The notes beneath the pieces were generated by a model, which was given only the letters and a program-made list of their open reading frames with translations, searched no databases and was not told the DNA's origin. From Ferrovibrio terrae (GTDB lineage: Bacteria > Pseudomonadota > Alphaproteobacteria > Ferrovibrionales > Ferrovibrionaceae), in the NCBI RefSeq assembly GCF_007197755.1, contig NZ_CP041636.1, positions 1,524,001 to 1,588,000 of the forward strand: a stretch of DNA of 64,000 nt, read 5' to 3'. This document shows positions 7,136 to 16,619 of the stretch, piece after piece; the stretch's first letter is position 1; each line of letters begins with the position of its first letter. The translations under genes were made by a program, and so were the position numbers.

Positions 7136-7316
7136 GGTATTATATGCTATAAATCAATGACTTATTTCAAAGTCGAGCATCATTCCGGGCAATCCGGATT
7201 GGTGTTGGTCGTGACGAAGCTGTCCGCCCAGAGAGCTTTTCACGCTAAATCAATACTCCTGCGGTAATCTGCTGATCAATCTGGCCAAATTGGTCATCTG
7301 CGGGCGGGAAGAGCGA

Positions 7317-9521
7317 ATGGACTCTATGGATGACGGGCGGAGCGTGGCAGCCCAGGTCGGGTCTGATACGGCGAATATGCGCGGGCGCGTGCGGGTCTCG
7401 CTGAAAATCAGCCTTATCGTCATCTCCCTGCTGACGGTTTTCCTGACGGCCGCCGCGGTGCATCTGCCTTGGCTGTTCGTCAGCCGCGACAACGTCGCGG
7501 TGATGGCGCAGCAGCTGAATACCGAGATCGTCTCCGGCGTGAACCGGGAAGTCTCCAGCATTTTCGAATCCGCCACTGCCGCTCAGGCAGCCCTGCACGA
7601 TGCGCTGTATGACGGCGCGGTCGAACTGGAGGACAAGCGCAGCCGCGACCGGCTGTTCTTCTCCCTGCTCAAGGCGAACAAGCATTTCTCCTGGGTCAGC
7701 TTCGGAAAGCCGAATGGCGACTTCTATGGCGCGCAACGGATTGATGAGGTCAGCCTGCGCATTGCCGAGAGCCGCTGGTCGCCGGAGCGCCAGGAAGCTG
7801 AGCGCGTCGAGGACTCTTACGTCAACGACGGCGAGCAGATCACCTATACGAACACGAAATACCGGGCGTCCGACTATTACGCGCCGACCCGCTCCTGGTA
7901 TCGCCTGGCGGCGGCCAAGCCCGGCCAGCATATCTGGACGGACATTTATGTGTTCGACGTCAGCCGCAAGCCCGGCCTGAATACCGCAGTCACGCTGCAG
8001 AATCGCGGCGGAGATCTGCTGGGGGTGATCTCGGTTGCCATCGAGCTCGACCGCATCTCGCATTATCTGGCGAACCTGACATCGCTTCGTTCCGGTTCAG
8101 CCTTCATCATCAATCAGGCCGGCAACCTGGTGGCCTTCCCGGATGCACGCGAAGTCACGCAGCCGTCGCTGGTATCAAGCCTGCCGGAACTGAAGCCGCT
8201 GGCCAACAGCTATCACCCGATGCTGCAGATGGCCCATGCCGGCATTCAGCAGGCCGGGTTGAGTCTGGAATCACTCGGTGCCACGAAACAGCTGGTGACA
8301 CACGACGCGTCCGGCGCACGTTACTTCCTGACCCTGGCACCATCCGAACGCAGCGGCTGGGTGATCGGTACCATCATTCCTGAATCGGCTTTCATGGGTC
8401 CGATCGAGGAAAACTACTATCGCGTGATCCTGGCAGTGCTTGGCGCAGTTCTGCTGGTCAGCCTCATGTCCATCGTCGTTTCGCGCCACCTGTTCATCGG
8501 GCCGTTGCAGCGTCTGATCAACGAGACGCAAAAGATCGCGCGTTTCGATCTGGATCAGGTGCAGCGTGTCTCGAGTCCGCTGATCGAAATCGACGCCCTG
8601 TCGGCCTCGATCGAGCAGATGAGCCGCGGCCTTGGATCATTCCGGCGCTATCTGTCCGCCGATCTGGTGAAGACCCTGGTTGATCAGGGTGTCGTGGCCG
8701 AGCTGGGTGGCGAACGTCGCAACATGTCGGTCATGTTTATGGATCTCGAGGGGTTCACGGCGACATCCGAGCGTCTCGGGCACCGGATTGTGCCGCTGCT
8801 CGGCGAGTATTTCGGTGCCATGAGCAAAGCCATCGAGGGACAGCGCGGTACCATCGACAAATTCATCGGCGACGCCGTGATGGCCTTCTGGGGGGCGCCG
8901 AATTACGACGAGGATCACCCGACGCTGGTCTGCCGCGCGGCACTGGATTGCGCCGCAGGGATGGCGGCGTTGCGCGTCGACTGGGCGCGTCGCGGCCTGC
9001 CTGAACTGAAACTTCGGATCGGCCTTACCACCGGTCGCATGGTGGTCGGCAATATCGGCAGCGCCGAGCGCCTGAACTACACCGTGATCGGCGACCCGGT
9101 GAATCTGGCTTCCCGACTGGAGGGCATGAACAAGGAATTCGGCAGCACCATCCTGATCAGTCACAACACCTGGGAGCTGGCGCGGTACGATATTGTCACC
9201 CGGCGACTGGATGCGGTGAAGGTCAGGGGCCGTGAGACGGCTATCGCGGTCTACGAGCTGCTCGCCATGCGCGAGGAGAACGGCAATGTGCCGGCCGGCT
9301 TCGAGTGGATCGCGCTGTTCGAGAAAGGCCTGGATCTCTATGCGGAAGGCCGCTGGCATGAGGCGGCGCAGCAGTTCCGTCTGGTGATCCAGATGCGCGG
9401 CACCGATGCACCGTCGGAAGTCTTCCTGGCCCGGGCCGAGCAGCGGATTGCCGCCGAGCCGAAGCATCCTGTTCTTGCCGTCTCGCGTCCAGAGCAGGGC
9501 ACTGGTGGCGACGTTGGATAA
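7317..9521 (+). CDS. Membrane-bound class III adenylate/guanylate cyclase with extracytoplasmic sensor domain
   Basis: The ATG at 7317 with GGGAAGAG upstream gives 734 residues; a TTG nine codons earlier is possible. Order: membrane helix about 31-55, a large extracytoplasmic Cache-like domain about 56-368 (with SWYRLA and FIINQAGNLVAFP motifs), second helix about 370-390, a HAMP-like linker, then the cyclase domain about 465-650. Catalytic features are visible: MFMDLEGFT and FIGDAVMAFWG carry the two metal-binding Asp residues, and IGDPVNLASRLEG the transition-state region. A tail of about 90 residues follows. It should turn a periplasmic ligand signal into cAMP or cGMP. It converges on the SBP gene with a 15-base gap. 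Confidence 0.9.
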   Translation: MDSMDDGRSVAAQVGSDTANMRGRVRVSLKISLIVISLLTVFLTAAAVHLPWLFVSRDNVAVMAQQLNTEIVSGVNREVSSIFESATAAQAALHDALYDGAVELEDKRSRDRLFFSLLKANKHFSWVSFGKPNGDFYGAQRIDEVSLRIAESRWSPERQEAERVEDSYVNDGEQITYTNTKYRASDYYAPTRSWYRLAAAKPGQHIWTDIYVFDVSRKPGLNTAVTLQNRGGDLLGVISVAIELDRISHYLANLTSLRSGSAFIINQAGNLVAFPDAREVTQPSLVSSLPELKPLANSYHPMLQMAHAGIQQAGLSLESLGATKQLVTHDASGARYFLTLAPSERSGWVIGTIIPESAFMGPIEENYYRVILAVLGAVLLVSLMSIVVSRHLFIGPLQRLINETQKIARFDLDQVQRVSSPLIEIDALSASIEQMSRGLGSFRRYLSADLVKTLVDQGVVAELGGERRNMSVMFMDLEGFTATSERLGHRIVPLLGEYFGAMSKAIEGQRGTIDKFIGDAVMAFWGAPNYDEDHPTLVCRAALDCAAGMAALRVDWARRGLPELKLRIGLTTGRMVVGNIGSAERLNYTVIGDPVNLASRLEGMNKEFGSTILISHNTWELARYDIVTRRLDAVKVRGRETAIAVYELLAMREENGNVPAGFEWIALFEKGLDLYAEGRWHEAAQQFRLVIQMRGTDAPSEVFLARAEQRIAAEPKHPVLAVSRPEQGTGGDVG

Positions 9522-9536: not shown

Positions 9537-10748
9537 TCAGCCGCCTGGCCGTTCAGATACCGTCTGACCGCGAATCCGCACCGGCCTGCCGCTGGCATCG
9601 AAGATGAACGTCGCGGCTTCAAAGAACGAGAACGGGATTTTCAGGCCGATCTCACGGGCACGCAGGAAGTTGATGGCGATATCCGGCGGCGAGACGACGC
9701 CGACTTTCATAGTGGCCGGGCGGCTTTTTCCCGCGAGGATGTCGGCGCCATACAGCGCCGCCAGCTGAGCATTTGATTCGAAGCTGACACCGATCGACAG
9801 CACTGCGCTGTCGCGACCGGCCTGCACCACTTCCGGTACCACGGCAAGGACCGGCACCGCGCCGCTATGCGCGTTGATCGTGGCGATTTCGGCGAAGACG
9901 CTGGTCGCGCCCGTGACCCAGAACACGCTCTGGTCAAGGCCGGGATCGGTGCGGCGCATCTGTTCAACCGCCGCCGGGACCAGCGCCGCCAGCTGGTCTT
10001 TCGCCTGCGCCGGTTCTGTCACCGCCACTTCGGAGACCTGGATACCCTGCCGCTGCAGGGCTTCGGCAATCGGGCGGGCCTGCGTCGTGACTGCACTCGT
10101 ATTCTTGTCATCAACCAGGATCGCAACATTCCGCAGTTTCGGCTTTAGCTCGCGCAGATAGCCGATCTGCACATCGAGCAGCACATTCAGCGAAGTGAAG
10201 GCAAAGTTGTTCCCGCTGCCGTGTTCGTAATCCGGCATCTGCCCGAGCTGTACAGGGTCCTTCGCGCAGATTGTCACCACGGGAATTCCAATGTCGCGAT
10301 GGTCCTGATACAGCCATTCCACTGTCTCCGATCCCATCGCATAGATCAGGGCATAGCCGTCGCGACGCGCTTGCGCGATCAGAGAGGCACCGCGCTGCGG
10401 GTTCACCGCGAAGTTGACTGCCAGGATTTCTGTATTGAGCGGCCGGTTGGAAAAGTCGTGCAGCATGGTCGACATTGCGACGTCATAGGCCGTGGATTTG
10501 CGCGGGTAGATCACCATCACGCGCTGCACAGGCCCTGCCGCCCCGACCTTGCGCCGCAGCAAGATGCGCTGATCGTCTGCGGCATCTGGTCTGGACGGCA
10601 GCCAGTGATCGAGCGATTTTTCGTCGATCGAGAACCACGACTCGACACTATGCAATGCATCATCGGATGCGGTTGCCACGGCGGGCATGGCCAGCACCAG
10701 TAGCGTGCCTATTGCCAGCAGGCGAATGAGGGAAGTGAGGCGGGTCAT
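9537..10748 (-). CDS. ABC-type substrate-binding protein (PF04392-like), orphan
   Basis: The ATG at 10748 overlaps the stop of the upstream MFS gene (ATGA) and gives 403 residues with a signal peptide (MTRLTSLIRLL, hydrophobic stretch, AVATA-SDD cleavage). The mature part resembles the ABC_sub_bind family: RVMVIYPRKS strand, ALIYAMGSETVEW, IPVVTICAKDP, VAILVDDKNTS, and the C-terminal FFEAATFIFDASG ending. Relatives usually work with a two-component ABC importer, or serve as sensor inputs. No ABC permease or ATPase is next to it; it is the third gene of a coupled trio with a sensor-MFS fusion and an ATP-grasp ligase. A ligand-sensing or delivery role is inferred. Confidence 0.82.
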   Translation of the reverse strand: MTRLTSLIRLLAIGTLLVLAMPAVATASDDALHSVESWFSIDEKSLDHWLPSRPDAADDQRILLRRKVGAAGPVQRVMVIYPRKSTAYDVAMSTMLHDFSNRPLNTEILAVNFAVNPQRGASLIAQARRDGYALIYAMGSETVEWLYQDHRDIGIPVVTICAKDPVQLGQMPDYEHGSGNNFAFTSLNVLLDVQIGYLRELKPKLRNVAILVDDKNTSAVTTQARPIAEALQRQGIQVSEVAVTEPAQAKDQLAALVPAAVEQMRRTDPGLDQSVFWVTGATSVFAEIATINAHSGAVPVLAVVPEVVQAGRDSAVLSIGVSFESNAQLAALYGADILAGKSRPATMKVGVVSPPDIAINFLRAREIGLKIPFSFFEAATFIFDASGRPVRIRGQTVSERPGG

Positions 10749-13051
10749 TTTCCTGCACCAGCTTGATGCGTACGGGTGGGAAGTGCGAACAGCAGGGTGC
10801 AGGCGAGCATGACGCCACCCATCCACAACCACGCCACCGGACTGTTTGATGTCACCAGCAGCAATTGTCCGGCAAGGATCGGCCCCATGGCATGTCCGAC
10901 CCGCTCCACCATGCGGTAGAGCGCTGTCGCGCCATTCACGCCCAGCTGCTCAGCCGCCCCGGTGGTACCGACATAGGTGATGATCGGCGCGTTGATACAG
11001 CCATGCGCCAGGCCGAGCAGGAAGACCCCGCCGACGATGACGCCAGCCTCGAGAAGTGGTGGCAGAAGCCAGAGTCCGATGCTGCCGAGTGCGAACAGGC
11101 TGATGGCGGAGACCAGACCGCCGGCCACCAGCGTCGCGCCGCTGCGGCCGGTGCGGTCGACAAAACGGGCAACCGGCCCGCTCGCGAGCAGCACACCACC
11201 GGCATACAGCATGATGACCTGCCCAATATCCTCGGCAGCCCAGCCGAGCCCGCTCAGCAGCAGCGGCGTGGCGAAGCCGATCGCACCGGTGAGCAAGGCC
11301 TTCGAGGGCGCGCCGATCAGCAGCAGTGCGCGCAGGAATCCCAGGCTGGCAAAGGCACGCGGGACATCCCGCAGCATCTGGCGAAAACCGGCGCCTGCGG
11401 TGGAACGGGCCGACACCACTGCCGCCGACCAGGCGGCATAGACAGCCAGAAGCCCCGCGGTGATGGCGCCGACCGCGAAGACGCCGTTTGCTGAAAGGTC
11501 ATTGACGAGCAGCGAGCCGATGGCGGCGCCCGCAATCATGCCGGCATTGAAGCCGAAGACGATGACGGCTGCGCCGCGGGTACGTTCATTCGCCGGAACG
11601 CTGGCCAGAACGGCGGCCTGCACGGAAATAAACAGGATGCCCTGGCCCAGCCCGGCGATGGCGCGTGCCATCAGCATGGTCGGAAAATCCGGAGACATTG
11701 CGGGCAGCAGGCTGGCCAGGCCGACCAGCAGGGCACCGCAGACAATGGCATTGCGGGGACCGTGCCGGCTGACCCAGGCGCTGGTCGGCAGCAGAGACAG
11801 CAGGAAAACCGCAAAATAGGTGGCAAACGCGAGCGAGGCCGCATTCCGGCCCAGGCTGTACTCCGCGGCCGCCGTCTGCAACAGCTGCGGCCAAAAGCTT
11901 GCCGGCAGGTATTCGCAGAAAACCGAAATGAAGAAGATCGGCCGGATCAGCGCCAGTTGGCGCGCGTCGGCATGATTGCTGCGCGATCCCAATGCCTGTG
12001 CCACGCCGAGCAGAAGTGTGGCGACCAGCACCGAGCCGACAAACAGCGCACCAAAGTTCCTGACGCCGCGCAGCACGGCGTTCGAAACGATGGCAACCGG
12101 CAGCGCGACGATTACACGAATCTCACTTGCACTGGCATCGTGCATGAGGGGCACGACATATTCGTAGGCTTCCTCATCGCTGCGCCATGTTTGTCCGGTT
12201 GTGGTCGGGTCGCTGCTGACCACGACCGTGCCGTTCAGGATCATGGACACGGCCTTGATATCTGGATTGAGCTGGCGGTAGCGCAGCAGCATCCTGTCCA
12301 GCCCCTCGAAATCCTCGATCGCCAGACCGTAAGTCAGCACCGGTTCGACTCTTTGGGCCAGTGATTTGGCCAGCGCCTGGGCTTTGGCCTGCGCGCCGTC
12401 CTCGTAAAGGGTCAGCAGGCCGATCACCACAACCACCGTGGTGATGACAAAGGTCAGCACGTAACCTGCGCCAATCCACAGGGTGGCGCTGCTGCTTGTT
12501 CGCCCGGCAACCCGGAAAGCGAACAGGCCAAACAGGAGTGCGAGGCTGGCCGCCACGGTCACGAGTTGGGGCAGGGTTGCATTGACGACTCCCGTCACGG
12601 CTTCGCGCGGCATGGTGATCCGTAACTCGCCGATGGTTTCGAAGCGGTTGCTCAGCGGCAATGCAACCTGCAGCCAGGACTCATTTTCGTACACCTGGAA
12701 GCGGTGTGTGCCCCTATGACCGGAGAGGTACGGCGTCGCCGTATTGCCCACCAGAAAGATCGCGCGGCCATTCAGGTCGTGGACGGCGATCGCGGCGATG
12801 GCGGGATCCGACTCACGGATCGAGTCTGCAATCTGGCGGAAGCCCGGAAACTGTCCCACCGGAAGCCCGGCGCGCAGGTAGGTGTCCATGGCGGTCAGGA
12901 CGAGCTCGCCCTGGGTGACCATCTTGTCGACCTGAAAGCGCGTGTATGTTCGCCTGGCTTCGCTCCATCCGATATAGACCAGCAGGCCAAGCGACAGGGC
13001 CGCCATGGCCAGCATGATCAAACCGTTGCGGGATCGATCCGCAAAATTCAC
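10745..13051 (-). CDS. Fusion of two extracytoplasmic sensor segments to an MFS transporter
   Basis: This 768-residue protein starts with GTG. Layout: helix about 11-28, first extracytoplasmic segment 30-158 (PAS/Cache-like, with IAAIAVHDLNGRAIFLVG), helices about 160-180 and 191-214, second extracytoplasmic segment 215-330 (RMLLRYRQLNPDIKAVSM, NGTVVVSSDP, as in histidine kinase and GGDEF sensors), helix about 333-354, then a full MFS carrier 365-768 (RAIAGLGQGILF, RGAAVIVFGFNAGMIAG, GPVARFVDRTGRSGA). Ordinary MFS proteins have about 400 residues, so the extra 360 are a sensory front end. The start overlaps the ATP-grasp stop (TAGTG) and the stop overlaps the SBP start, so all three proteins are coupled in translation. 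Confidence 0.88.
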   Translation of the reverse strand: MNFADRSRNGLIMLAMAALSLGLLVYIGWSEARRTYTRFQVDKMVTQGELVLTAMDTYLRAGLPVGQFPGFRQIADSIRESDPAIAAIAVHDLNGRAIFLVGNTATPYLSGHRGTHRFQVYENESWLQVALPLSNRFETIGELRITMPREAVTGVVNATLPQLVTVAASLALLFGLFAFRVAGRTSSSATLWIGAGYVLTFVITTVVVVIGLLTLYEDGAQAKAQALAKSLAQRVEPVLTYGLAIEDFEGLDRMLLRYRQLNPDIKAVSMILNGTVVVSSDPTTTGQTWRSDEEAYEYVVPLMHDASASEIRVIVALPVAIVSNAVLRGVRNFGALFVGSVLVATLLLGVAQALGSRSNHADARQLALIRPIFFISVFCEYLPASFWPQLLQTAAAEYSLGRNAASLAFATYFAVFLLSLLPTSAWVSRHGPRNAIVCGALLVGLASLLPAMSPDFPTMLMARAIAGLGQGILFISVQAAVLASVPANERTRGAAVIVFGFNAGMIAGAAIGSLLVNDLSANGVFAVGAITAGLLAVYAAWSAAVVSARSTAGAGFRQMLRDVPRAFASLGFLRALLLIGAPSKALLTGAIGFATPLLLSGLGWAAEDIGQVIMLYAGGVLLASGPVARFVDRTGRSGATLVAGGLVSAISLFALGSIGLWLLPPLLEAGVIVGGVFLLGLAHGCINAPIITYVGTTGAAEQLGVNGATALYRMVERVGHAMGPILAGQLLLVTSNSPVAWLWMGGVMLACTLLFALPTRTHQAGAGK

Positions 13052-14295
13052 TAAAGCCGTTCCGCGATGTGATGCACGGCCGCTGGCCGGTTTCGCAAGT
13101 AATGCTCAAGCCGGTCCATCAGCTGCGAGAGAATCAGATCTTCGTAACTCATGTCATGCACGCCGAGGCCGACGCAGACAAGGCTGGTCCGTTTGTCATC
13201 CGGTCGTTTCAGGTCCGGCTTGGGATTGGCCTCCAGAATATGGAGGCGGCCATCACTGTCGGCGCGGATATCCAGACGGACCAGGGCGCGCAACTGAAAC
13301 TCGCCGTGGACGGCCCGCGCCAGACGCACAAGTTCGTCATAAGTCTTACCATCAGCGGGACCCAGCAGGCGTGTGCGATCCTGCGTGATCGGGCGTATAT
13401 CCATCGAGGTGAAGATCGCCTCGTCCGGCTCCAGCAGGCGTTCCAGCGCCGAGAAGACGAGTGGTTGCGCCAGCTGCTCCAGTTTGCCGCCGCGGGAAAT
13501 CACCTTACCGCCGACCGCGACGCAGTATTCGGGCCCGCCGACAAATGTCTCCACCAGCACCTGGTTCAGTGTGCGGCGATACACCTCGTCGACGGCAGCT
13601 GTCAGGCCGGCATAATCCGGTACGAAATGCACATGCTGGGAGGCGCGTCCGGTGACCGGCTTGACGACGAATGGTCCCCGGTAGCCGCGGAAGGCAGTCT
13701 GGAAGCGCGGCTCGTTCTCCGGATCCAGTTTGCCCCATACGCCGTCCCAGACCATGAAAGCGGGCGTGGGCAAACCGAGGCCGGCGCATTCGCGCTTGAA
13801 GACCTGCTTGTTGTCCAGGGTGACGGCCAGCAGCGGGCGGTGGCCGACATAGGGAATGCCTGCCATCTCCAGCAGGGACGGCGTGTGCGCGACAGCATCA
13901 TAGCCTTGCACACCGGCGGTATTGAGCCATGCAATGTCGATGGACTCCTGACGCAGCCGTTCGGCCAGGGTCATGTCGTCAGGCAGCAGCATGACATGCC
14001 GGAAGCCGTTGTTCCGAAGGGCTTCGGCGATGTCCTCGGCGACCGGGCGATACGATTTTTCGGAGCGGGGATTGTGCGTCTGGTGGATCACGGCGCCGGG
14101 GCTCTGGCGATCGCCGTTGTAGAGGACGGCGATCCGCAACGTCTCGCGCAGTCGCGGCAGGCCTGCGGTCAGGCGTTCGAAAACGCTGCCGGTCAGCTTT
14201 GTCGTTTCAGCCAGCTTTTTCGCTTCAGATTGCGGCACAGCCCCGTCAATCCCCACCACAATGCCGTTCCCCAATGATCGCCCTGCCGAACGCAA
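13051..14295 (-). CDS. ATP-grasp ligase, D-Ala-D-Ala ligase-like
   Basis: The protein has up to 414 residues if a TTG at 14295 is used; the start is uncertain because no clear RBS is seen and a GTG lies about a dozen codons in. A Ddl-like N-terminal domain (VLYNGDRQSPG, then SIDIAWLNTAGVQGYD) leads into the ATP-grasp core: KQVFKRECAGLGLPTP, FVVKPVTGRAS, QVLVETFVGGPEYCVAVGG and a C-terminal VRLDIRADSDG...ILEANPKPDL that supplies metal ligands. Such enzymes join a carboxylate to an amine through an acyl phosphate. It is not near peptidoglycan genes and is the first gene of the trio with the sensor-MFS and the binding protein. Substrate unknown. Confidence 0.85.
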   Translation of the reverse strand: MRSAGRSLGNGIVVGIDGAVPQSEAKKLAETTKLTGSVFERLTAGLPRLRETLRIAVLYNGDRQSPGAVIHQTHNPRSEKSYRPVAEDIAEALRNNGFRHVMLLPDDMTLAERLRQESIDIAWLNTAGVQGYDAVAHTPSLLEMAGIPYVGHRPLLAVTLDNKQVFKRECAGLGLPTPAFMVWDGVWGKLDPENEPRFQTAFRGYRGPFVVKPVTGRASQHVHFVPDYAGLTAAVDEVYRRTLNQVLVETFVGGPEYCVAVGGKVISRGGKLEQLAQPLVFSALERLLEPDEAIFTSMDIRPITQDRTRLLGPADGKTYDELVRLARAVHGEFQLRALVRLDIRADSDGRLHILEANPKPDLKRPDDKRTSLVCVGLGVHDMSYEDLILSQLMDRLEHYLRNRPAAVHHIAERL

Positions 14296-14460
14296 ATCGT
14301 CGGCCGCTGGCCCGATGGAAAGCTGGTTAAAAAGCAGGCTCTGTAAATAGCAGAATTCGGGCCGTCATGCCATGGGCCGTGCGGGTCCGCAGACAGCAGT
14401 TAACCGCTGATCTGGCGCGCTGACGCTCAGCTCTCTGGACCGGCTTCCGGCCGTCGCTGT

Positions 14461-15211
14461 TCCGCAGCCGCCATCGCGGCGGCCATGCAGGCACAGCCGA
14501 TCGGCCTGCCCAAGCTGATGGTGTCGACGCTGGCGGCCGGCGATGTCTCGGCTTTTGTCGGTGTGCATGACATCGCCATGCTGTATCCGGTCACCGATAT
14601 TGCCGGGCTGAACAGATTATCTCGCGTGATCCTCGCCAATGCGGCGCATGCGCTGGCCGGTATGATGACACGCAGCATTCCGGCCTCGAGCGACACTCGC
14701 CCGGCGCTGGGCCTCAGCATGTTCGGCGTCACCATGCCCTGTATCCAGCGGCTCACCGCGCGGCCTCAATGCCGATTACGAATGCCAGGTCTTCCATGCC
14801 AATGGCCCTGGTGGCCGCTCGCTCGAGGCGATTGCCGGTTCCGGGCTGTTGCAGGGCATGGTCGATCTCACCACCACCGAAGCGGCCGACCATCTGCTCG
14901 GCGGCGTCTGCACGGCGGGGGCGGAACGTTTCGATGTGGTGGCCAAAACAGGCATTCCCTGGATCGCCGCCAAGCTGAATGCTTCAGCGGGTCCCGTGCG
15001 GCTCCTGCTGTCCGAAGGCGGCGTCTCGGCGCTGGATGCTCCGGGGCAGAAATTTCATGACCCGGCCGCCAACGCCGCGCTGTTCGCCGCCTTCGAAAAG
15101 CACTTCGCAGTGAGCGATACACATCGCATCCTGCGCGTGCCGCATCACATCAATGATGCCGGTCTCGTCGAAGTCGCCGAGCGGCATGTTCGTGAGCTGA
15201 TCCGGTCCTAG
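14461..15211 (+). pseudogene. Tm-1-like ATP-binding (UPF0261) gene, broken
   Basis: The frame around 14461-14760 encodes a recognisable Tm-1 family block ([45 protein letters not shown]). After about 14760 the family sequence continues in another frame ([19 protein letters not shown], then [17 protein letters not shown]), so a frameshift is present. Roughly the first 150 residues are missing, and an internal stretch between KTGIPW and IAAKLNA is shorter than in intact members by an estimated 50-60 residues. The end ([26 protein letters not shown]) is normal. The gene cannot make the full protein. Confidence 0.8.
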
Positions 15212-15215
15212 ACCG

Positions 15216-16619
15216 TCACGCCTTGTAGCAGACGCGCAAACCGCCCCACAGGCGGCCATCGATGCGGATCGGGGCCGAGGCGTCCTTCATCAGCACGAAC
15301 ACGCCGCCACCCATGTCGCGGCGATAGGTCTGCAGCAGGAAAGGCGCCGTGCTGCGTGCCACGGCCTGCGCGGTCTTGTCGAGATACTGGCGGCGGTTGC
15401 GGCAATGCGCGGCATTCCAGATCGGATCACTGCTGAGTGGTTGACGGAATTTTGGATTATGCGTCGGGATCAGCTGGTTGTGGTCGGTGGTGGCGCAGAA
15501 CACCATGCGCTCGTCCAGCGCCATGATCGGATCGTGCAGCTGCGGCAGCACGCGATCGAGGAACGGGATGTAGCGTGTCATATACTGCACCGGATCGCTG
15601 CCCTGGATTGGCTGCAGCTGCTTGTCGAACAGGTCGTCGACGCGGATCTCGCCACGCACCACGGCGTCAGCGAAGACCTGCTCGATCTGCCGGGCGACCT
15701 CGACCGCAGCGGCGATGAACTTGCTGTCGGCCGTCTCGAAACCCGAAGTAGCGGTCAGCATCATGATCGATTCCGCGCCCGTCAGCGTACGGTCGATGCG
15801 GGTCGAGGCCGCTTTCAAAGCGGCATTCGACTGATCCACCCCGGCATTCAGGTCCTGTACAGTCTGGCCGAAGCTGCCGGCCTGCTGGCCGATGGTTTCG
15901 GTCATGCGCGCAATCGAATCGGCATTCTGGTCCACGCGGGTGACGGCTTCTCCCACCGTCTGCATCGCGGTGCTGATCGTGGTGGCGCTCTGGCGTACGC
16001 GTTCGGTGCTCTGCATGCCGGCGGACATGCGCTCGCCAAGTTGCTTCATCTGCGTGGTCAGCGCCGCCAGCGTGCGTGCGATCTCGTCGGTGGCGCCGCT
16101 GGTCTGCTTGGCCAACGCCTTCACTTCATGCGCGACCACGGCAAAACCGCGTCCGGCTTCGCCGGCGCGTGCGGCTTCAATCGTTGCGTTCAGCGACAGG
16201 ATATTGGTGTGGCGCGCGATCTGGCCGATCTCGGCCGACACCTTCGCCACGCTTTGCATTGCGGTTTCAAATGCAGCGAGCTGGTCGCCGATGGCCTTCA
16301 CGGCTTCCACGAGTTCGCCGATATCGGTGAGCGATTTTGTCAGCTCGCCATGCGAGGCATCGACATCGTGATGCGCCTGTTTCGCCATGCGCTGCGTTTC
16401 CGCGGCCATGCCGGCAATCTGCAAATTGCTGGCGACGATTTCCTTCGTCGCATCGGCGATGACGTGAAACTGTTCAGTCTGGCTGTCGATCAGGCGACTC
16501 ACCTGCTGCACGTCACCAACCACATCAGCGATATCGACGCTGAGCCTGCCGATTTCATCTGAGATACGCCAGGCCAGTTCGCCCGCATCTGCATTCGATA
16601 GCTCGGCATGTGCAGTCAT
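15216..16619 (-). CDS. Soluble methyl-accepting chemotaxis protein
   Basis: The protein has 467 residues and no membrane helix. A long coiled coil (about 20-290) contains the MCP hairpin tip [20 protein letters not shown] near residue 140 and the following [15 protein letters not shown]. The C-terminal 170 residues form a separate globular domain ([20 protein letters not shown], ending [16 protein letters not shown]) that resembles Cache/PAS-like sensor modules placed after the signalling domain in alphaproteobacterial receptors. It should pass an intracellular signal to CheA. GGGGGAAA lies before the ATG. It is convergent with the Tm-1 remnant and divergent from the LysR gene, with no chemotaxis operon nearby. 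Confidence 0.92.

Follow-up and report, generated by a model that had tools for sequence, protein, structure and literature searches.

The window analysed here, a 64,000-nucleotide stretch of the Ferrovibrio terrae genome (contig NZ_CP041636.1, positions 1,524,001 to 1,588,000), carries on its minus strand three successive genes, which encode a Ddl-like ATP-grasp amide ligase, a fusion of sensor domains to a major facilitator superfamily (MFS) carrier, and a periplasmic binding protein of family PF04392 (Table 1). We refer to this trio and to related loci as cassettes. The two stop/start overlaps that the original prediction had noted at the gene junctions are both present. It had further concluded that the proteins are made in a fixed ratio, a conclusion that is not supported: of 49 trio loci, 10 allow a one- or four-base overlap between ligase and MFS genes, and 28 allow one between MFS and binding-protein genes. 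The binding-protein gene most likely begins at ATG 10748, just before a signal-peptide-like stretch, rather than at GTG 10832 of the longest open reading frame (ORF). The ligase probably begins at the in-frame TTG 14274, whose alignment counterpart in the closest relative is an ATG (L037:7383), rather than at TTG 14295.

Table 1. Features of the cassette and its proposed output gene, in window coordinates (TM, transmembrane; pLDDT, predicted local distance difference test; pTM, predicted template modelling score).
Feature	Position	Strand	Basis
Ddl-like ATP-grasp amide ligase	13051..14274	-	longest ORF reaches TTG 14295; likely start TTG 14274
Sensor-MFS fusion, 768 aa	10745..13051	-	Pfam MFS_1 1.4e-38; AlphaFold model, mean pLDDT 85.4, pTM 0.82
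Extracytoplasmic PDC/Cache-like domain 1, residues ~31-160	12572..12961	-	AlphaFold model
Extracytoplasmic PDC/Cache-like domain 2, residues ~216-320	12092..12406	-	AlphaFold model
MFS carrier domain, residues ~360-760	10772..11974	-	VIA and Foldseek comparisons
PF04392 periplasmic binding protein	9537..10748	-	PF04392 1.7e-11; N-terminal hydrophobic segment
TAGTG stop/start overlap, ligase/MFS (read 13053-13049)	13049..13053	-	sequence
ATGA start/stop overlap, MFS/binding protein (read 10748-10745)	10745..10748	-	sequence
dCache-HAMP-adenylate/guanylate cyclase, proposed output	7290..9521	+, convergent to binding-protein gene	Pfam

The trio is a real module. A ligase profile was searched against a collection of named genomes and the best 80 of 171 relatives were kept; the full trio, in the same order and on the same strand, occurs in 46 of these 80 loci, and in 46 of the 52 that are not cyanobacterial. 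The remaining 34 comprise 28 cyanobacterial loci, five broken by a contig end (within the carrier in L078, L091, L106 and L120, and after the carrier and part of the binding protein in L128) and one (L126) in which the 0.8 kb remaining shows nothing. Applied to an even sample of 385 alphaproteobacterial genomes, the same profile gave 10 matches at E <= 1e-25, eight of them with the full trio; the match in G371 (96 bits) is a distant paralogue, and G140 has two ligase copies at contig ends that leave no space for a carrier. The named-genome loci overlap this class sample (L108 and L138, for example, are one contig), and the two sets of counts are not summed. Among 72,556 plasmid records, six, all from Vibrio, encode relatives of the three proteins at full or nearly full length, with ligase identities of 42-45%, and these are the sole records with a binding-protein match or a near-full-length carrier. 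Distance matrices of the three proteins correlate across 48 loci with r = 0.86, 0.85 and 0.90, against maxima of 0.20, 0.23 and 0.30 in 999 permutations, and together with the order kept across loci these correlations lead us to reject chance adjacency. The co-occurrence in fixed order that the original prediction proposed to look for was therefore found, and rare adjacency, which it had named as evidence against itself, was not: the genes are nearly always adjacent.

The module is patchily distributed, as accessory functions are. A phylum survey found the ligase in 4 of 398 genomes at E <= 1e-60, and within the genus (ten genomes) full-length carriers are encoded only in G000, G001 and G002, a patchy pattern seen in a pilot survey of 78 genomes. 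The Ddl-like branch is also found in Vibrio, Spirochaetes and Chloroflexi, and in Cyanobacteria the ligase alone is found. One Anaerolineae-labelled contig (L116, Chloroflexota metagenome-assembled genome (MAG) IP29b_bin.19) has a ligase near-identical to that of the alphaproteobacterial MAG L113 and an identical neighbour layout; its Chloroflexota label is likely a binning error.

Cyanobacterial ligases form one group (SH-like approximate likelihood ratio test 99, quick tree), and neither the sensor-MFS nor this binding protein stands beside them. Instead, the gene upstream of the ligase belongs to one family in 25 of the 28 cyanobacterial loci, assigned to EamA by Pfam on one representative, and the EamA-type gene and the ligase abut in L072 and others. 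By eye, an MntP-like manganese exporter gene lies near the ligase in L064, L100, L104, L112 and L119. Two loci without the EamA-type gene (L076 and L110, from Picosynechococcus and Limnothrix; ~11.6-16.8 kb) have after the ligase genes that by eye resemble TonB receptors, phosphodiesterases, Fe/B12-type binding proteins and FecCD permeases.

The ligase matches Pfam Dala_Dala_lig_C at 3.1e-7, and its AlphaFold model (pLDDT 88.8) aligns with P. aeruginosa DdlA (8evv) with a Z of 30.6 over 303 residues at 2.5 A, many other Ddl entries following within a few Z units. Residues R340, D342, E355 and N357 are invariant among 44 aligned sequences and occupy the positions of the Ddl Mg and oxyanion residues, roles that we take from established knowledge of Ddl. 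However, the protein falls below all listed NCBI Ddl cut-offs (68.3 versus 243 bits for NF002378 and 59.8 versus 245.65 for TIGR01205), and a canonical Ddl is encoded elsewhere in the same genome (G000:C1:2732767), scoring 161.7 bits to PF07478 versus 29.9 for the cassette ligase. Identity as the cell-wall Ddl is rejected on both grounds, in keeping with the earlier description of a Ddl-like enzyme away from cell-wall genes. Overall, the enzyme shares with Ddl the fold and the Mg/ATP/oxyanion residues and differs in missing the curated cut-offs, in lying outside any cell-wall cluster and in an N-terminal NPRSxKSY-type motif, which is common to most of its relatives. The fold bears out the suggestion of an amide-forming ligase, and the natural reading of model and conservation is an amide-forming enzyme with a predicted specificity other than D-Ala-D-Ala. 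Its nearest named relative, at 92% identity, is from a Ferrovibrio MAG.

In the AlphaFold model of the carrier, a unit of TM helix, alpha/beta domain and TM helix occurs twice and is followed by the MFS bundle, of which Pfam MFS_1 spans residues 374-698. Helices and five strands, with a TM helix on either side, make up the first sensor domain. This topology backs the earlier claim of two extracytoplasmic sensor-like segments ahead of the carrier. Their resemblance to PDC/Cache domains is one of model topology, the comparison having been made on the whole carrier, and the Foldseek and VIA lists are occupied by matches to the MFS part. Pfam Cache families match few of 24 carrier N-terminal regions (sCache_3_2 in three, dCache_1 in two and sCache_3_3 in one), with no such match in the window carrier's own N-terminal region. 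The MFS part reaches a Z of up to 40 in VIA to VMAT, G6PT and NorA; the best Foldseek matches are MdfA, VMAT2 and NorA, with other carriers close behind, and SotB is matched as well. No relative of the carrier was found in viral contigs.

The solved relatives of the binding protein are TrpX 3lft, 6hni and 3lkv, and the family assignment raises the question of an ATP-binding cassette (ABC) importer. No ABC permease or ATPase adjoins the gene in the window, and no recognised ABC parts occur at its position among the recurring gene families of the 80 loci, families that are partly annotated; the description of a binding protein without an ABC permease or ATPase is accordingly true of the neighbouring genes. 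A protein search of the F. terrae genome returned only the window binding protein itself, and the corresponding PF04392 search, which overlooked even this protein, is too insensitive to exclude others. The TrpX cut-off is missed by a wide margin (41.6 versus 390 bits). The ligand-binding residues T108, A127, T129, D152 and N233 of S. suis TrpX are reported to be common to the proteins compared with it, with one exception at D152 in S. pyogenes (PMC9382623). We aligned 24 chosen cassette binding proteins, some trimmed, to the 3lft fragment, which does not include N233. At the positions of T108, A127, T129 and D152 the window protein has S, C, K and L, and none of the 24 has Asp at the D152 position. 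The T129/D152 pair is Lys/Leu in four ligase-trio proteins (window, L114, L134 and L033), Lys/Ile in cassettes with TauD, Ser/Glu with GCS2, Thr/His with ATP-grasp_4, and Ser/Tyr or Ser/His with the GNAT types, a pattern by enzyme type that would fit a receptor tuned to the product of its own cassette. Membership of PF04392 is what the cassette protein has in common with a TrpXYZ-type importer; it differs in having no adjoining permease or ATPase and in the replacement of T129 and D152 by Lys and Leu. With partner genes missing beside it and the TrpX ligand residues altered, an ABC importer is rejected. Two spirochaete loci, L115 (7405-8553) and L106 (5184-6281), have, upstream of the ligase, a second gene whose product is more distantly related to the binding protein.

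Searching with the carrier instead of the ligase reveals a wider family. A carrier profile (E <= 1e-20) matches 33 of the 385 alphaproteobacterial genomes, and 10 of these matches are full-length, namely the eight ligase trios, G393 and G226. The other 23 carriers match chiefly in the MFS part; most lie in longer ORFs whose front halves are weakly sensor-like. A PF04392 protein, Pfam-confirmed for many, lies within 3 kb of the carrier in 31 of the 33, the exceptions being contigs of 3.5 and 5.0 kb. A separate sensor gene of ~250 aa stands by the carrier in 16 of the 33, as if the fused carrier were the sum of two partners. An enzyme is recognised beside this core in 25 of the 33, and in 16 it is an amide ligase: the window-type Ddl-like ATP-grasp enzyme (8), GCS2 (4), a GNAT-like protein with ATP-grasp_4 (2), or other Ddl-like ligases (2; two genes in G303 and at least one in G380). 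The remaining enzymes are TauD (2), GNAT or GNAT-like with alanine racemase (2), GNAT or GNAT-like alone (3), a formyltransferase (1) and an HMGL-like protein (1). Here 'GNAT-like' denotes, for L184, L186, L188 and L189, similarity to the weak GNAT match of L195 rather than a Pfam match. As the sole yardstick for these counts, the PF07478 density of the window's genome corresponds to ~1% per locus, a figure for PF07478 alone with the trio ligase included. Independent cases are fewer than the counts because sister species are among them (G050, G178 and G275 of one genus; G180 and G277; G303 and G380). Overall, the carrier and the binding protein are the constant core of the family, to which exchangeable enzymes and exchangeable signalling outputs are joined. 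Two further arrangements are seen: a GCS2-family ligase beside the sensor-MFS with PF04392 and dCache-SpoIIE genes facing (L043, 7580-11644; L150, L193, L204 and L044), and a carrier-like sensor region without the MFS beside PF04392-type and SpoIIE genes (L182 in G393 and L183 in G226).

Signalling genes recur around these cassettes. Of the 46 trio loci, 37 have a histidine kinase, GGDEF-EAL or cyclase gene at a distance of at most 4.5 kb, a lower bound because only a handful of query domains was used. The convergent dCache-HAMP-adenylate cyclase of the window goes with the module in near relatives, and 8 of the 46 (L056-L058, L060-L062, L098 and L134) have a relative of it no more than 4 kb downstream of the binding-protein gene. 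In one of these, the spirochaete L134, the two genes share a strand and overlap by 4 bases. Among the 33 carrier genomes the output is a SpoIIE-type gene in 15 (weak in G362), often with RsbW/STAS, and a cyclase in four. By eye, one PAS type (LPGVVYQR..PDG.IRYTYISEG) is common to kinases or GGDEF-EAL proteins of L105, L117, L121, L084 and L113 despite their differing outputs.

Some cassettes are physically linked to a type VI secretion system (T6SS). In V. tubiashii, a full T6SS operon on p251 contains the trio between tssH and an FHA gene; one more gene comes after the three, and its product is a small substrate-binding protein of transporter type. The arrangement is similar in V. crassostreae and V. 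gigantis, three of the six plasmid gene tables having been examined. In the class sample, TssF lies 15.8 kb from the carrier in G032 (GCS2-type), 16.3 kb in G289 (no recognised enzyme) and 18.7 kb in G057 (GNAT-type, with unrelated genes in between), and other Tss genes are present in all three. TssF occurs in 68 of the 385 genomes and together with the carrier in eight, of which three have the two within 20 kb versus 0.07 expected (P about 4e-5 under random placement; the distance limit was set post hoc). Carrier genomes show no enrichment for T6SS presence (8/33 versus 60/352, Fisher p = 0.21), and no TssF was found in the window's genome. A general role as a T6SS accessory is rejected on these two results, which leave physical linkage only.

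Building on the observed gene content, order, distribution and folds, we infer a product, a direction of transport, docking and signalling as follows. The trio probably makes an amino-acid-derived compound, exports it through the sensor-bearing transporter and detects it with the loose binding protein; that the cassette is such a unit, making, exporting and sensing a self-made extracellular small compound, we regard as having about an even chance of being right. In a first step, suggested by the fold and the conserved catalytic residues, the ligase would spend ATP to couple an amino acid with another small acid or an amine, and the product would be a dipeptide-like amide other than D-Ala-D-Ala. 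The MFS domain would then export this amide, as an EamA-type carrier would in Cyanobacteria. In the periplasm, the PF04392 protein may bind the product or a competitor and dock on the two Cache-like domains, gating export. Its occupancy would be relayed to a neighbouring output, in the window the dCache-HAMP-adenylate cyclase and hence cyclic AMP, elsewhere a histidine kinase, a GGDEF-EAL protein or a SpoIIE/RsbW/STAS switch. Taken together, these steps would yield a secreted compound that acts like an autoinducer or is under feedback control. This single idea covers the pairing of the ligase with an MFS or with an EamA carrier, the recurring carrier-receptor pair, and the exchange of both enzyme and output. 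The original prediction, a system that makes, senses and moves a small amide, is thereby partly supported: the module, the amide-forming ligase (by its fold), the lack of ABC genes beside the binding protein and the undescribed composition stand, and the product, the direction of transport and the docking on the sensor domains keep the conditional form given here.

Several observations weigh against a unit that makes, exports and senses its own compound. The MFS fold leaves the direction of transport unfixed. A GP in TM5 is part of the usual antiporter motif, and TM5 of the window carrier is glycine-rich by eye but lacks it. Only 10 of the 33 carriers match over their full length, and the G362 carrier, at 459 aa, is too short to include sensors; 8 of the 33 loci have no recognised enzyme, three of them on contigs of less than 6 kb. 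An output gene of the kinds searched for is missing from 9 of the 46 trio loci (five with short flanks) and from the three Vibrio loci. The window cyclase is convergent and not co-transcribed, and the output genes of many relatives show only cytoplasmic PAS/GAF domains, to which a route from the periplasm is not obvious. As for the receptor, the binding proteins share descent by enzyme type, which yields the same residue pattern as tuning would, and S. pyogenes TrpX itself is reported to have Asn in place of D152 (PMC9382623).

Three other explanations were weighed. Scavenging appears rather unlikely; in this reading an amino-acid derivative would be taken up by way of the binding protein and the sensor-MFS and then conjugated by the ligase for use or storage, with the cyclase reporting availability. 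No PF04392 protein is known to us to deliver a ligand to an MFS, the residues that contact the ligand in TrpX are substituted, and most Cyanobacteria have an EamA-type carrier instead. The nearest carrier folds include drug exporters, although the lists also hold importers (PepT, galactonate). On the other side, the enzyme could work after import, and the family relative TrpX of S. suis serves tryptophan uptake (PMC9382623).

Unlikely, too, is a secreted weapon or metallophore, with an antimetabolite or metal chelator as product, the binding protein and Cache domains regulating its release, and the T6SS linkage marking a competition island. Cassettes in or near T6SS genes (the Vibrio plasmids, G032, G289 and G057) would suit it, as would the TonB-receptor-like and Fe/B12-type importer genes seen by eye near the ligase in two cyanobacterial loci and the fact that MFS and EamA carriers also export opine metallophores. 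However, neither a larger biosynthetic cluster nor an immunity gene could be recognised at the cassettes, the same core accompanies single-step modifying enzymes, and most cassettes lie away from T6SS genes, whose presence is not enriched. A purely sensory device, with the sensor-MFS as a transceptor, the enzyme supplying or removing a cytoplasmic co-signal and nothing exported, is very unlikely: two Cache-like domains, a binding protein and second-messenger or phosphatase outputs do dominate the cassette, but the MFS part retains many residues invariant across the 44 aligned sequences, and Cyanobacteria pair the ligase with another exporter family, with neither the sensor-MFS nor this binding protein alongside.

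The proposed unit for making, exporting and sensing a compound has partial likenesses among known systems. In AI-2 (autoinducer 2) sensing by LuxS-LuxP-LuxQ, a synthase is combined with a periplasmic receptor and a membrane partner with PAS/Cache-type domains, and the cassette likewise has a synthase, a soluble periplasmic binding protein, a Cache-type membrane partner and a signalling output. In contrast to LuxPQ, the cassette's membrane partner is an MFS protein that lacks a kinase domain, so that the receptor would not dock on a sensor kinase, and the cassette has an amide ligase or another amino-acid-modifying enzyme, a PF04392 receptor and varying outputs. Opine metallophore systems, whose exporters are the MFS CntE and the EamA protein CntI, also place a small synthase gene beside an MFS or EamA exporter; the cassette differs in the sensor domains on its carrier and in a binding protein without an ABC partner, and no opine- or nicotianamine-type synthase was noticed at it, no search having been aimed at such enzymes. 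Graspetide-type clusters, in which an ATP-grasp ligase modifies ribosomal peptides, resemble the cassette in having an exporter nearby, an MFS being mentioned, whereas neither a sensor-MFS nor a PF04392 protein is mentioned for them in the available part of the source (PMC8939145). The combination is not described in the literature searched, although amidoligase work (Iyer et al. 2009) could predict part of it, and the earlier impression of a composition without described precedent thus agrees with our search. As far as that literature goes, it is the architecture that is new; its function is what we infer from it.

If correct, the proposal would describe a new way to couple the synthesis, export and perception of small molecules and a transporter under the control of a soluble binding protein that has no ABC machinery, and it would provide concrete targets in the search for new extracellular signals, some tied to interbacterial weapons. 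Related cassettes that swap enzyme and signalling partner hint at an undescribed family of bacterial chemical signals. A bolder and more doubtful possibility, which we put forward tentatively, is that the carrier and binding protein are central to a large and so far undescribed class of systems by which bacteria signal to themselves. Each would have its own modified amino acid or dipeptide, Cache-gated MFS export, a dedicated receptor and a chosen output. In such a class, an enzyme swap would alter the 'word', and an output swap (cyclic AMP, cyclic di-GMP, phosphorelay, SpoIIE partner switch or T6SS) the 'meaning'.

Around the trio, the window encodes the cyclase and UPF0261, MCP, cupin and SDR proteins. 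The UPF0261 gene, immediately upstream of the ligase (14427-15211), is broken: the front of the gene is absent, and its N-terminal family lies in one plus-strand frame (14485-15060) and its C-terminal family in another (14849-15211). Close to the cassette, at 15216-16619, follows a 467-aa MCP signalling protein without predicted TM helices.

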